A program made the translations under genes and the position numbers. Shown here one piece after another: positions 2,918-31,714 of a stretch of DNA of 32,627 bases (position 1 is the first letter of the stretch; every line of letters starts with the position of its first letter). The stretch comes from Candidatus Scatousia excrementigallinarum (GTDB taxonomy: Bacteria; Cyanobacteriota; Vampirovibrionia; Gastranaerophilales; Gastranaerophilaceae). The stretch covers positions 1-32,627 of the forward strand of contig DVIU01000207.1 in the NCBI GenBank assembly GCA_018711035.1, written 5' to 3'. The notes beneath the pieces were generated by a model. It worked only from the letters and a program-made list of their open reading frames with translations. It was not told the DNA's origin and searched no databases.

Positions 2918-3695
2918 TCACTTTAAAAGCATATCAGAAGAACAGCCTATTCCGGAAATAGGTGAACCGTGGTGCATACCATTGAGTGAAGACGCATATA
3001 CCTCTTTTTCTGAAGTACAGCTATCCTTAAAATACTGAGGTCTGTATCCGCAATTTGCCCCAACTGGACATGCTCCGGGCGGAGTTATTACCAGAGCAAA
3101 AAAGTCTCTGCCTAAAATATTCGGTGGAGATTGTATACCATTTACATCTACAAATATATAAATTACAAACATATCATAAAAACTATTTGCTCTAAAATAT
3201 ACAGTTGCACCTTCTAATGAATACCAAACAGTATTAAGACCGTTATCACTATCTATATACCCTCCAAATGAATATGGATTCATACCGGTGCCATATAAAG
3301 TTTTATAAGATTCAATATTACCTCCGCCATAAGAGCAATCCTGTCCTTCAGGACAGATATTTTCATAAGTTCCAATTCTGACTCCCAATTTTTTCTTAAT
3401 CAATTCTAGAATTTTATACTCTTCCTCAAGCGAAGAAAACATCTCATCTGTATCAGAAACAGCTAAATCATTTTTTACAAAAAGATATGCGTTACTTATT
3501 TTAGAATAAAGACTTTTCCATTTATTTCTGCATACTAAATCCTGATATTTACCAACAAGTACAGGCATTGTTATTGCCGCAACTATACCAATAATCCCAA
3601 GAGTAATAAGAACTTCTGATAATGTAAACCCTTTTCCCGAGAAGGTTCTACACTGCCCCCCCCCCCGAAATCCGCTCTATTTCTGCATTCTTCAT
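2918..3695 (-). CDS. Prepilin 1, frame interrupted at a G11 tract (candidate phase-variable gene)
   Basis: Type IV pilin-like protein. The true start is the ATG at 3695, 7 nt after a GGAGG. From it the leader reads MKNAEIERISGGG, then with 11 G the frame runs AV-stop. With 10 G it would continue QCRTFSGKG|FTLSEVLITLGIIG into the pilin, giving 258 residues with a 22-residue leader cut by prepilin peptidase between G22 and F23. The hydrophobic N-terminal helix (about 23-45) anchors or polymerises the pilin. The variable domain has several Cys and the motif VDVNG...PN..G.DFF, shared with prepilins 3 and 4. As written the gene is OFF by one extra base (778 nt). It has its own promoter (3717-3745). 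No ATG lies between the tract and the pilin helix, so no easy internal restart exists. Confidence 0.9.
3656..3666 (-). repeat. G11 homopolymer in prepilin 1 leader
   Basis: Eleven C on the plus strand, read as G11 in the gene. It encodes Ser-Gly-Gly-Gly of the leader, 9 codons after the ATG. It sits in GGATTTC-G11-CA, the same flanks as the tract of prepilin 2. Runs this long are typical substrates for slipped-strand mispairing. Confidence 0.95.
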
Positions 3696-5726: not shown

Positions 5727-5764
5727 AAAAATAGGGCTTTTGTTTCGAAAGTCCTATTTTTTTT
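5727..5764. terminator. Bidirectional terminator between dnaK and prepilin 5
   Basis: AATAGGGCTTT (5730-5740) pairs with AAAGTCCTATT (5748-5758) over 11 bp with one G-U pair and a 7-nt loop, flanked by A-run and T-run. It can end dnaK on the plus strand and prepilin 5 on the minus strand. Confidence 0.85.
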
Positions 5765-6389
5765 ACCATGGATAATCATCTTTGATTTCCCAACCGTCAT
5801 ATTCTATCAATTTAGCACACAGACCACCTTGTCTTTTCCCTTTTGCGCATAAATGTCCTGCCGAATTTCTAATAAAAAATTCTTCTCTTGTCCCTTTCCA
5901 TCCGATACTATACGGTTCAAAGCCCTTTCTGCTTGTAAACTGAAAAATAAATCTATCACGCGAATTATACTCTTCTACTTCTTTTTGACAATCCGAATAT
6001 TTTACACAAAAGAAATATAGACTATTATAATTAGAAAATCCTGAGCCATTTGGGAGTGCGACAATTGCATATTTACCTTTAGCTATTGTTTCTGTTGTTT
6101 TAATATAAGGCAGTAAATATTTTTGTAGCCATAACAATTGTTTTTCACCATCACCCTTAAGAGAGCCGCTCTCTCCAAAGTTATTTGACTCCCAGTTATT
6201 CCAATCACCATATTCCAATTTTGCTCTCTGAAAGGCCTGAGCCATTATTGAATTAAATGCTTTTAAACGTGTTGCTGTTACGTTTTTTAGGTGCTTCTCA
6301 ACTAAAACCGGTAATGTCAAAGCAGCAACAGTTCCTATTATTCCTAAAGTGATTAATACTTCAGCTAAAGTAAATCCTCGTTTATTCAT
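5763..6389 (-). CDS. Prepilin 5 (no G tract)
   Basis: Type IV pilin-like protein of 208 residues. The start is the ATG at 6389, 5 nt after AGGAGG, giving a short leader MNKRG cut before F6. The hydrophobic helix FTLAEVLITLGIIGTVAALTLPVLVEKH follows the canonical pattern with Glu at mature position 5. The C-terminal part (FEPYSIGW..., two Cys, then YDGWEIKDDYPW) is the same subtype as prepilin 2. Unlike prepilins 1-4 it has no homopolymer and an intact frame, so it is readable as written. The promoter is a near-consensus pair with a perfect 24-bp palindrome at the transcription start. A divergent XRE regulator lies 100 bp upstream, which suggests regulation at transcription instead of by a leader tract. 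Confidence 0.92.
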   Translation of the reverse strand: MNKRGFTLAEVLITLGIIGTVAALTLPVLVEKHLKNVTATRLKAFNSIMAQAFQRAKLEYGDWNNWESNNFGESGSLKGDGEKQLLWLQKYLLPYIKTTETIAKGKYAIVALPNGSGFSNYNSLYFFCVKYSDCQKEVEEYNSRDRFIFQFTSRKGFEPYSIGWKGTREEFFIRNSAGHLCAKGKRQGGLCAKLIEYDGWEIKDDYPW

Positions 6390-6414
6390 AAAGCCTCCTA
6401 GCAATATATTACTT

Positions 6415-6438
6415 TTAATATCAATATATTGATATTAA
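6415..6438. promoter_or_regulatory. Perfect 24-bp palindrome, likely operator of prepilin 5
   Basis: The half-site TTAATATCAATA is followed by its exact reverse complement. It covers the predicted start site (+1 to about +22) of prepilin 5, where a bound repressor would block transcription. The adjacent XRE protein is the obvious candidate binder; this is inference. Confidence 0.65.
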
Positions 6439-6443
6439 GTATT

Positions 6444-6472
6444 AATATATTCCCTTATGTTTAAAATGTCAA
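6444..6472 (-). promoter_or_regulatory. Promoter of prepilin 5
   Basis: On the minus strand TTGACA (6467-6472), 17-bp spacer, TATATT (6444-6449). Ten of twelve or better matches to the sigma-70 consensus. Start predicted near 6437, at the edge of the palindrome. Confidence 0.75.
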
Positions 6473-6476
6473 GGGA
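6451..6476. promoter_or_regulatory. Inverted repeat in the divergent promoter region
   Basis: TCCCTT (6451-6456) and AAGGGA (6471-6476) form 6-bp arms 14 bp apart. The repeat spans the -35 of prepilin 5 and the upstream region of the XRE gene, so one protein bound here could affect both directions. Short arms leave chance possible. Confidence 0.35.
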
Positions 6477-6477
6477 T

Positions 6478-6483
6478 TATAAT
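6478..6483 (+). promoter_or_regulatory. -10 box of the XRE gene, leaderless configuration
   Basis: A perfect TATAAT ends 6 nt before the ATG at 6490, so transcription should begin at or next to the start codon. No Shine-Dalgarno is present. The -35 region is weak (TTATGT, 6455-6460). Confidence 0.55.
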
Positions 6484-6489
6484 TTTTAA

Positions 6490-6711
6490 ATGAGAGATAA
6501 ATTAAAATATAAATTAGGACGTAACATAAAAGCTGAGAGAATAAGAAGAGATTTAACTCAGGAAGAATTCGCAGAAAATATTGATATGAGTTTAAGCCAT
6601 GTTAGTAAAATTGAGCAGGGCATAACTTCACCAACTGCAATTGCTCTTTTTAAAATGGCAAAAATATTATGCATACCAATGGAAAAATTTTTTGAAGGAA
6701 TTGAAATTTAA
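6490..6711 (+). CDS. Small XRE-family HTH regulator
   Basis: A 73-residue single-domain DNA-binding protein of the Cro/C1 type. Helices run from about residue 9 to 66: IKAERIRRDLTQEEFAENIDM (helix 1 and 2) then SLSHVSKIEQGITSP, where the recognition helix reads LSHVSKIEQG, typical for this family. No ligand or protease domain follows. It is transcribed away from prepilin 5, with a palindrome and a second inverted repeat between them, so control of prepilin 5 and of itself is the natural inference. The start is supported by the TATAAT 6 nt upstream and absence of a better ATG. Confidence 0.88.
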   Translation: MRDKLKYKLGRNIKAERIRRDLTQEEFAENIDMSLSHVSKIEQGITSPTAIALFKMAKILCIPMEKFFEGIEI

Positions 6712-8664: not shown

Positions 8665-9427
8665 TTAATAACTAACTTTATACGGGTAATCATCAGGTAT
8701 TTTCCAGCCGTTCATTTGGATTATTGCAGTGCAGTAATTTTTTTCGGAGCCGCTGCAGGAATATTGTGCTCCTGTGTAGAGCTTTTTAATATTGCCATCC
8801 CAGCCTACTTTATACGGTTCCATCCCTTTATTATAGTGATACTTCCATCCCTCCGCGGTATTATTTGGATAAAAACTAAAAATAAAGACGCATTTGCCAT
8901 TAACATTATGAATGCTATTACCCTCTTGATTTAAACACTTGTCAGGATTTCCCGGGAAATAATGCCAATCCCGCATGATGCCTGGCATTGTTCTTAGCGC
9001 ACTCCCATCCGGGAAATAAACAATAAGTGCTCCTTTCTTAGAACCAGATGCTATCGTTTCTATTTTAGTTGTTTTTAAATACGGGGCAAGATATTTTCTA
9101 AACCATTTTTCTTGCTGAGAACTTCCGGAAACAACATTTCCGTCCTTATCTATTTCTGCCCCTGCAAGATCTTCATACCAGTATTTTTTATCACCATAAT
9201 CTTTTTCCGCCATCAATATTGCCTGATTGATTACGGAATAAAATTTCATCAGACGTGTCTCAACTACTCTGTTGTTATTCTTCTGAACCAAAACTGGCAA
9301 CGTCGTTGCTGCAACAATGCCTATTATCCCCAATGTTATCAGGACTTCTGCTAATGTAAAGCCTTTTCCTGTGAGGGTTTTAAGATGCCCCCCCCCCCGA
9401 AATCCTCGCTATGCCTATCTTTTGCAT
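8665..9427 (-). CDS. Prepilin 2, frame interrupted at a G11 tract (candidate phase-variable gene)
   Basis: Pilin-like protein of the same subtype as prepilin 5. The ATG at 9427 follows AAAGGAGG by 5 nt. The leader reads MQKIGIARISGGG; with 11 G it ends AS-stop, with 10 G it continues HLKTLTGKG|FTLAEVLITLGIIG for a 253-residue prepilin with a 22-residue leader. The C-terminal half carries GMEPYKVGWDGN, two Cys and MNGWKIPDDYPYK, matching the EPY..GW.G and GW.I.DDYP motifs of prepilin 5. Length is 763 nt, one base more than a multiple of three. A good promoter (9448-9476) serves it alone. No in-frame ATG lies between the tract and the hydrophobic helix; the ATT/ATG codons inside the helix would destroy the signal. 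Confidence 0.9.
9388..9398 (-). repeat. G11 homopolymer in prepilin 2 leader
   Basis: Eleven C on the plus strand, G11 in the gene, encoding Ser-Gly-Gly-Gly nine codons after the ATG. Flanks GGATTTC and CA are identical to those of the prepilin 1 tract. Confidence 0.95.
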
Positions 9428-11374: not shown

Positions 11375-11593
11375 TTAAGCCGGCGGATTTTCGTCGGGAA
11401 CGTAGCGGAGCAGGTCGTTCGGTTTGCATTTCAGATACCAACAAAGTTTATTCAAGATTTTAAATTTAATTCCTTGAGTTTTGTCTAAATAAAGGTTTTG
11501 TATTGTTTCATATTTTACATTAATACATCTTGCAACTTCTGCAACAGTAGTCTTTCTTTTACCTATCATTGTTGAAACTTCATTTATTATCAT
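11375..11593 (-). CDS. Small XRE/Cro-type HTH regulator (72 aa)
   Basis: I place the start at the ATG at 11593 (MIINEVSTMIG), not at the longer upstream extension. A promoter with TTGTCA and TATACA lies inside that extension and its -10 ends 9 nt before this ATG, making the mRNA essentially leaderless. The protein is a compact Cro/C1-like HTH: TTVAEVARCINVKYETIQNLYLDKTQGIKFKILNKLCWYLKCKPNDLLRYVP. It has the shape of the HTH_26/YozG-like small regulators with the conserved C-terminal LC..L.C...DLL. Its neighbour downstream is the putative toxin/antisense RNA locus; a regulatory link is possible but unproven. Confidence 0.85.
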   Translation of the reverse strand: MIINEVSTMIGKRKTTVAEVARCINVKYETIQNLYLDKTQGIKFKILNKLCWYLKCKPNDLLRYVPDENPPA

Positions 11594-11602
11594 ATAGTCG
11601 AT

Positions 11603-11632
11603 TGTATAAAATTTTCCTAAATTTGTTGACAA
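11603..11632 (-). promoter_or_regulatory. Promoter of the HTH gene at 11375-11593
   Basis: Minus-strand TTGTCA (11627-11632) and TATACA (11603-11608), 18-bp spacer. The predicted start lies 0-3 nt before the ATG. The -35 lies within the short inverted repeat TTTGT-TG-ACAAA, a possible autoregulatory site. Confidence 0.55.
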
Positions 11633-11707
11633 AATCCATATATTAGGATAATATTCTATATATAAGGAATAAATTAGTAACATTACTTAATCTGGAAAGG
11701 GGTCAAA

Positions 11708-28361: not shown

Positions 28362-29139
28362 ATGAAAACCATTGATATGATTGCATTCCCACAGAGGGGG
28401 GGGGGGCTCATTTAACGCCGGCGAGCTTTTCTACGCTTTGGGATTGTCCCGACAAAAATCAGGTTTTACCTTAGCTGAAGTTCTGATTACTTTAGGTGTT
28501 ATAGGTGTTGTTGCGGCAATGACTCTGCCGGCTCTCGTTACAGATTACAAAGGTAATATACTTAAAACACAGCTTCAAAAATCATATTCTGTTATACAGA
28601 ATGCCTTGCAAATGATGAATAATGAGCAGGGTTTTGTAGCAAAACCGGGTTCTTATGCGCAAAGAGCTTTTATAACTACGTATAAAAAATATTTATTAGT
28701 CGCAAGCGATTGCAACAGTGATAAATGTGAATCCCGATATGAGGAAAATGAAGATGGTGATTCAGTAATGACCAATAATTCCTCCAATTATAAAACATAC
28801 AATAATAAAAAATTAAAGAATCAATATCTTGACGATGGACAGCTTATTCTTCCGGACGGAAGCTTTATAATGGTTCAAAATGAAGAGAAGGCATTGGATG
28901 GTACCATATTAATTTCTGTAGATGTAAACGGCATCTATAAAAAGCCAAACCGCTGGGGGCATGATTTGTTCACTTTTCAAATTATGGATGATGGTAAGCT
29001 GTTACCTATGGGCAGTGACGGAACCCTATTTGATAATGATACTTACTGCTCGGGAACAAGCAGTTCCAGTATAAACGGTATTGCATGCACTTACAGAGCA
29101 CTTACTGAAAAAGATTACTTCAAAAATCTGCCTAAATAA
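28362..29139 (+). CDS. Prepilin 3, frame interrupted at a G11 tract (candidate phase-variable gene)
   Basis: The ATG at 28362 follows AGGAGG by 5 nt. The leader reads MKTIDMIAFPQRGGG and with 11 G ends LI-stop; with 10 G it continues into a 258-residue prepilin through SFNAGELFYALGLSRQKSG|FTLAEVLITLGVIG. The leader would be 34 residues, longer than the 22 of prepilins 1, 2 and 4. The pilin domain has VDVNGIYKKPNRWGHDLF, the motif shared with prepilins 1 and 4, and Cys pairs typical of disulphide-stabilised pilins. A TTG at 28381 gives an in-frame reading across G11, but has no ribosome binding site, so I reject it as the main start. TTG codons further down (around 28438-28446) could allow weak leakage. 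The stop overlaps an ATG (TAATG) just before the adenine deaminase gene. Confidence 0.9.
28396..28406 (+). repeat. G11 homopolymer in prepilin 3 leader
   Basis: Eleven G on the plus strand, 11 codons after the ATG, encoding Arg-Gly-Gly-Gly at 10 G. It is the only one of the four tracts on the plus strand of this window; the other three lie on minus-strand genes. Confidence 0.95.
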
Positions 29140-30912: not shown

Positions 30913-31714
30913 TTAATTACACTTATGTTTGCCCTGCCAGCTCAAATCATTGCAGTGCAGATAATCCATATTTTCATTATAAATTACCCATGCAGTGCAT
31001 CCGTAGCCATATCCTGCGCCGGTAGAGTTTACGACACAATTTTTTTCAAAAGGCCTGTAAGTTTCAATTTGTGTACCAAAAGGTATAATTGATGTTTTAG
31101 TAATATAAAATACAAAAATATCTTTACCTATAGTATTTGGAGCTTTTACACCATTCAAATCAACAAAGAATTCTCCGCATACATTATTCAAAACGCCTCG
31201 TCCCATTACCTTATCGCAATTTTCAGCATAAATCCACGAACCGGACAACATAATACCATCAGAAAGAACTAACCTTGTATTCGCGGAAGATCCGTTTGAT
31301 GTTCCGTTCAGAGCATTTACATTCCACTTCATCTCATCACATTCAGAACCGTAAAGACAATTTTTTATAACTTTTAAATAAGGAGAGATATTTTTTAAAA
31401 AGACATTTGCACCTGATCTATCCTCGTCTTGGCCATCTTCTCCCGGAGCATAAAGTGTCATACCCCAATTTTCGGGACTTCCATTTTCTCTTATTGCATT
31501 TAAATAAGCGTGAGAAACAGTTGAATAAATTTTTTTTAATTTAGAAACCGTTACTTTTTCCTGATGCTTTTGGACAATTGACGGTAAAGTCATAGCAGCG
31601 ACAATCCCGACTATACCGAGTGTCACCAGTGTCTCGGCAAGCGTAAACCCTTTTTCTGAGAGGAATTTAGAACGCCCCCCCCCCCGTAAATACAATCATA
31701 TCAACATATTTCAT
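30913..31714 (-). CDS. Prepilin 4, frame interrupted at a G11 tract (candidate phase-variable gene)
   Basis: The ATG at 31714 follows AAAGGAGG by 5 nt. The leader reads MKYVDMIVFTGGG; with 11 G it ends AF-stop, with 10 G it continues RSKFLSEKG|FTLAETLVTLGIVG. The ON product would be 266 residues with a 22-residue leader. The Glu at mature position 5 is kept. The pilin domain has FFVDLNGVKAPNTIGKDIF, as in prepilins 1 and 3, and several Cys. A TTG at about 31695 reads through the tract in frame but lacks a ribosome binding site. The leader shares MK..DMI.F with prepilin 3, so these two look like a pair by descent. It lies 27 bp downstream of the WG-repeat gene on the same strand and may be in one transcript with it. 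Confidence 0.9.
31675..31685 (-). repeat. G11 homopolymer in prepilin 4 leader
   Basis: Eleven C on the plus strand, G11 in the gene, encoding Thr-Gly-Gly-Gly nine codons after the ATG. Flanks (TTTAC before, CGTT after) differ from those of prepilins 1 and 2, so the tract is kept although the surroundings have diverged. Confidence 0.95.

Follow-up and report, generated by a model that had tools for sequence, protein, structure and literature searches.

A divergent one-domain XRE gene and tandem operator-like sites at a tract-free prepilin, an example of a putative repressor architecture in a Gastranaerophilales genome

The arrangement of a type IV prepilin gene lacking a G tract and a small, divergently oriented gene of the XRE family suggests, with a probability of about 0.7, that a private XRE protein holds the strong prepilin promoter shut, that XRE gene and operator form a socket behind which prepilin bodies are swapped, and that prepilins bearing a G tract use another switch. 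The locus is situated on contig C164, referred to as the window (the whole stretch of DNA analysed, 32.6 kb), of an uncultured Gastranaerophilales genome (2.81 Mb, 304 contigs, 99.8% complete, 7.8% contamination). The features between and within the two genes are the following, with positions given in the window:

5763–6389, minus strand: prepilin coding sequence, 208 aa, no G tract (Pfam N_methyl PF07963, TIGR02532)
6394–6399, minus strand: prepilin Shine-Dalgarno sequence AGGAGG, read from the sequence
6399–6414, no strand: operator-like site O1, 12/16 to the core of O2 by core similarity, adjoining the prepilin ribosome site
6415–6438, no strand: candidate operator O2, perfectly palindromic over 24 bp and placed at the prepilin start site (core 6419–6434), from palindrome and conservation
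6440–6455, no strand: operator-like site O3, 11/16 to the core, containing the prepilin -10, statistically weaker than O1
6444–6449, minus strand: prepilin promoter -10 TATATT (TATAAT in 6/6 orthologues)
6467–6472, minus strand: prepilin promoter -35 TTGACA (present in 6/6 orthologous promoters)
6478–6483, plus strand: XRE promoter -10 TATAAT, six bases before the ATG, from consensus matching
6490–6711, plus strand: divergent one-domain XRE gene (HTH_3, PF01381), putative repressor, 73 aa, probably leaderless

The prepilin scored above the cut-offs of both motif models (PF07963, 25.9 bits against 21.2; TIGR02532, 25.3 bits against 16.3) and carries the type IV prepilin motif. A first-pass annotation of this DNA had described the gene as free of a G tract, and the longest G run in the region from -260 to +20 of its motif indeed comprised 3 bases; no homopolymer tract of the kind that marks a phase-variable gene was found in its leader or promoter. 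The promoter, reported there as a consensus TTGACA-N17-TATATT, matched 11 of 12 consensus positions (6472–6444, minus strand), and the divergent gene was likewise verified as encoding a lone HTH_3 domain (PF01381, E = 9e-14, 51.6 bits against a cut-off of 23) with no sensor domain. Its nearest solved sequence was C.BclI (2b5a; E = 2.3e-6), the PADLOC Control_protein model matched at E = 3.6e-6, ranking only twelfth among models, and the one close public relative bearing a taxon name belongs to Candidatus Gastranaerophilales (L181). The XRE gene has no Shine-Dalgarno sequence and its -10 lies at the ATG, the transcript start being predicted from sequence only, and consensus matching revealed no good -35 at the right spacing from the TATAAT. 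The pair is neighboured by dnaK, gatA and one small ORF without a name, and a scan of seven further proteins of the window, immediate neighbours included, gave no match to a defence model. Elsewhere in the window, the ORF list shows no prepilin motif adjacent to a second small HTH gene (HTH_26, 11375–11683).

The palindrome at 6415–6438, already recognized in the first-pass annotation as perfect over 24 bp at +1, exceeds every other perfect palindrome of the window in length, and dinucleotide shuffling of the intergenic region attained that length in 2 of 5000 rounds; a scan admitting imperfect palindromes too gave p = 0.02 for this region. The annotation had held that loss of the palindrome in relatives keeping both genes would speak against its proposal. 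This outcome was avoided, since the core TATCAATATATTGATA is exact in the window and in five orthologous promoters (6/7), the seventh (L047) differing at two positions; the prepilin itself is usually different in these relatives. The exact core occurs once in the 2.81-Mb genome, and allowing a single mismatch added one further site, by eye inside a histidine-kinase-like coding region. Degenerate copies of the core lie 20–21 bp away on both sides of O2 in 7/7 orthologous promoters. The left copy (O1 side) matches at 12–14 of 16 positions across the seven promoters, with 12 being reached by a shuffled-flank null in 0.4%, and the right copy (O3 side) at 11–12 of 16, for which the evidence is weaker because the null reaches 10 in 12%. 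In 7/7, the centre of the right copy falls 42.5 bp upstream of the XRE ATG, though the spacing between O2 and O3 varies between 20 and 21 bp. Three tandem sites cover the prepilin -10 (O3), the +1 (O2) and the leader (O1), with O2 as the best match. Compared against the GACT-tat-AGTC class of C-boxes alone, the core did not belong to it. A second dyad, placed earlier at 6451–6476, did not withstand analysis: the inverted repeat actually found nearby (6446–6456/6471–6481, 91%, 14 nt between) was equalled in 38 of 300 shuffles, which is chance level, and its CCC/GGG arms are absent from 6/6 orthologous promoters, so that it was rejected as a feature.

The pair is one instance of an architecture that recurs across the genome. 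The genome contains 131 matches to the prepilin N-terminus, and the longest G run near them is bimodally distributed, 79 having 9–12 G and 52 at most 7 G, a few of the latter being cut off by contig ends. The earlier designation of the gene as the only tract-free prepilin thus holds for the window (one of five) and fails for the genome (52/131). Out of 55 XRE matches, 24 have a divergently oriented prepilin no more than 600 bp away, one has a same-strand prepilin neighbour and none a convergent one. When the 118 prepilins with at least 400 bp upstream were considered (13 with less were left out), a profile search detected a divergent XRE at 29 of 45 tract-free prepilins, leaving 16 without, versus 0 of 73 tract-bearing ones (Fisher 2e-16). 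The same was observed in the relative G006: 31 divergent, no convergent and one same-strand pair occurred among 49 XRE and 97 prepilin matches, and on contigs C1 and C2 and the first 160.6 kb of C3 (61 of the 97 prepilins) a divergent XRE was present at 23/38 tract-free versus 0/23 tract prepilins (Fisher 4e-7). Tract and divergent XRE hence never coincided among 118 prepilins here and 61 in G006. These counts support the proposal of a dedicated putative repressor module and of two alternative control styles, and extend it to a genome-wide pattern. The loci examined were the best 30 of 49 XRE matches in G006 and the best 30 of 68 in G009. In the wider family, 28 genomes were examined, all but one from other genera, and in 11 of them the best XRE locus was accompanied by a divergent prepilin; among XRE loci from other bacteria this was so at 0 of 7, L187 being left out of these. 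One and the same XRE subfamily has a divergent prepilin in some genera and lacks one in others (L202, L204 and L205 versus L192, L196 and L199), as though a socket might stand empty. Several XRE matches in relatives (L169, L177, L218 and others) contain a stop within the matched stretch, which may reflect an upstream extension beyond the real start codon or decay of the regulator.

The paired XRE genes follow two designs. Those of at most 90 aa (58 pairs, nine genomes) look leaderless: none has a Shine-Dalgarno sequence, the -10 adjoins the ATG in 38/58, and, among the 43 whose prepilin promoter is good, 22 have the prepilin -35 at a distance of 18 or 19 bases from the XRE ATG. Those of 91–107 aa have a Shine-Dalgarno sequence in 16/21, and the prepilin -35 is 40–91 bases off where the promoter is good (18/21). 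Within the window's own genome, 0/20 short versus 6/9 long XREs have a Shine-Dalgarno sequence (p = 2e-4). Prepilin promoters matched at least 10 of 12 consensus positions in 61 of 79 pairs, the survey leaving out pairs with a gap below 60 or above 260. Many of these comparisons are not independent, as the genomes are related. For operators, short XREs with a gap of 75–200 were scanned, one per 60%-identity family. Five of these 22 families have strong palindromes of differing sequence, all centred 62.5–65.5 bp before the XRE ATG, against a mean of 0.135 and a maximum of 2 in 200 rounds of shuffling; this significance is inflated because the position window (-67 to -59) was picked post hoc, after the first palindromes had been seen. 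The remaining short-XRE families have palindromes at other distances, or none standing out. Among six orthologue pairs compared, symmetric double changes of the arms were found in three and one-sided changes in three. Palindromes per se were not clearly enriched (p ≤ 0.05 at 20 of 81 XRE pairs versus 12 of 73 regions upstream of tract prepilins, the pairs counted being those with an identified prepilin and a gap of at most 260), and the control regions may contain terminators of upstream genes. As the tract-prepilin control scores nearly as often, a shuffle-based excess of palindromes was dropped as a stand-alone argument, and the case was built on conservation, position and uniqueness in the genome.

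An 11-G tract accompanies each of the four remaining prepilins in the window (3656–3666, 9388–9398, 28396–28406 and 31675–31685). Tract length is uniform genome-wide, with exactly 11 G in 64/79, and 72 of 73 tract prepilins with enough upstream sequence have a Shine-Dalgarno start codon whose frame enters the tract. At the assembled length, 61 of these leaders are shifted by one base against the prepilin, all in one direction; 8 share its frame and 3 use the remaining frame. Most tract prepilins therefore look OFF in the assembly, where homopolymer assembly error is possible. For tracts of exactly 11 G with a leader, 56 of 60 are off frame in the same direction, so that losing one G would open them. 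These prepilins, which have no XRE, would presumably be switched by slippage in the out-of-frame leader. A match to DUF6613 was strong in a tract-bearing prepilin body (8665–9333) and weak in the XRE-paired one (5763–6389), suggesting that both classes share a body family.

Orthologues of the window XRE were found in 6 of 12 other genus members searched (73–88% identity), with a divergent prepilin in 6/6. When XRE pairs of at least 75% identity were compared across genomes, the prepilin bodies were at least 50% identical in 21 comparisons and less than 40% identical in 33, with none between, the median for random pairs being 29%; prepilins of up to 120 aa (4 of 84 pairs) were left out. Co-inheritance of XRE and prepilin as a general rule was rejected, the body being at background identity in those 33 comparisons. 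These represent roughly a dozen XRE families, a single one of which accounts for eleven. Of the 33 swapped pairs, 23 show conserved DNA past the prepilin stop (67–88%), often beginning less than 20 bp after it; there is no match in the other ten, nine of which belong to the window's own XRE family. At the window locus, the dnaK-side DNA is kept in L045 and L046 and the gatA-side DNA in L046, and the body differs. Because bodies are either kept or at background while the flanks are often conserved, XRE and operator look like a constant socket that accepts different prepilin bodies, some of which occur elsewhere behind a G tract. Bodies also appear in both styles: a G009 body behind an XRE (L175) is 86% identical to the 11-G-tract body C208, the XRE-associated body L177 shares 77% identity with C105, and for the body behind the G010 orthologue of the window XRE (L047) the identity to the tract-bearing C134 is 67%. 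Altogether, a tract-class relative of at least 35% identity exists for 54 of the 81 XRE-class bodies. A 5' break of the exchange was not apparent, as swapped pairs were no more alike than random ones already in the common N-terminal codons.

We propose that an XRE dimer binds the tandem palindromic sites between both genes and, on O3, O2 and O1, would cover the prepilin -10, start site and leader. Since the sites overlap these elements, binding would block prepilin transcription and also set the XRE's own level. The same arrangement, each time with its own XRE and operator, may serve many tract-free prepilins, and XRE and operator would stay at the locus while bodies are exchanged behind them. 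The window anatomy fits plain repression and also a self-regulating switch of the restriction-modification controller type. In such a bistable switch of controller or lambda type, which we regard as possible but doubtful, XRE at O3 would activate its own leaderless, -35-poor promoter while closing that of the prepilin, so that cells would be prepilin-ON or prepilin-OFF and pass this state on with no change in DNA. The constant distance of O3 from the XRE ATG despite the varying O2–O3 spacing agrees with it, but may come from the two overlapping promoters; the leaderless start, the poor -35 and C.BclI as the nearest solved protein point the same way, as does C.Esp1396I, which activates its own gene from one site, represses it from a second and represses the partner gene at that gene's start from a third (PMC4041747). 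However, O3 is the weakest site, whereas activation usually wants a strong one, and operators of other XRE families lie at other distances. A wider picture can be put forward tentatively, namely that Gastranaerophilales hold a large, mostly silent prepilin repertoire under two exclusive switches, slippage and a C-protein-like epigenetic one with private orthogonal operators, the bodies being movable cargo.

That the XRE chiefly regulates itself, or activates the prepilin rather than repressing it, is unlikely: autoregulation is frequent among XRE regulators, but prepilin promoters at or near full consensus need no activator, and the operators extend over the -10, start and leader of the prepilin. 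Least probable by far is an accidental neighbourhood of a generic phage, antitoxin or defence-type XRE and a prepilin. The XRE fold is common, and weak matches to phage, antitoxin and control-protein models were obtained, but pairing and orientation in two genomes contradict such an accident, the neighbouring genes and the seven scanned window proteins are free of defence matches, and the phage match is single and weak. Defence-model and phage scans gave no support for a phage or defence origin of the pair.

The immunity control of lambda cI and the 434 repressor combines divergent promoters, three tandem operators and a leaderless repressor transcript. The window locus shares the divergent promoters, three tandem sites and an apparently leaderless regulator, but has no cleavage or sensor domain, a single target gene and no Cro-like partner that could be found. 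In the antigenic variation of Neisseria pilin, the N-terminal part is constant and the body is exchanged from silent copies into one expression locus; the prepilins described here likewise have a constant N-terminal part and an exchanged body, but the exchange occurs between species and at many loci, each with its own regulator. The sister prepilins, with 9–12 G in an upstream leader frame, resemble the phase-variable homopolymer tracts of, for example, Neisseria, Campylobacter and Helicobacter, whereas the window prepilin is tract-free, and tract and XRE controls are mutually exclusive. Controller (C) proteins of type II restriction-modification systems (C.BclI, C.Esp1396I, C.Csp231I), which are dimeric, are small one-domain XRE proteins as is the window XRE. 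C genes are commonly leaderless, and a C-box class GACT-tat-AGTC is described (PMC4824078). The window locus resembles Esp1396I (PMC4041747) in its tandem operator-like sites and in the proposed repression of a partner gene at the start site. It differs from C-protein systems in having no linked restriction or methyltransferase gene among the seven other window proteins scanned, no GACT-tat-AGTC C-box, a prepilin as partner, and dozens of XRE paralogues within a single genome that each have an operator of their own. The window XRE may therefore work like a controller, and is not classed as one because restriction-modification genes and such a C-box are missing. In PMC5877343, type IV pilus genes are mentioned for a relative from the termite gut, and no description of the prepilin/XRE architecture was found in the open-access literature searched, most subscription journals being outside its reach.

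One bacterium thus appears to carry dozens of parallel one-domain putative repressors, each tied to a single surface-protein gene; in neither of the two genomes checked did such a pairing coincide with a slippage tract. This offers natural sets of related putative repressor-operator pairs and makes the choice among some 130 pilus-like proteins by a gut symbiont testable. Fixed sockets with exchangeable bodies would, if true, be a route to surface diversity other than silent-copy recombination into one expression locus.

Type IV machinery is present in the genome, with one PF01478 match and four PF00482 matches in two genes, so that about 130 prepilins are served by only one prepilin-peptidase match and two T2SSF genes (G000:C68:964-1356; C79; C290). 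Many prepilin matches end contigs (e.g., C265, C100, C206, C17, C48, C111, C132 and C260), as if the common N-terminal segment breaks the assembly.
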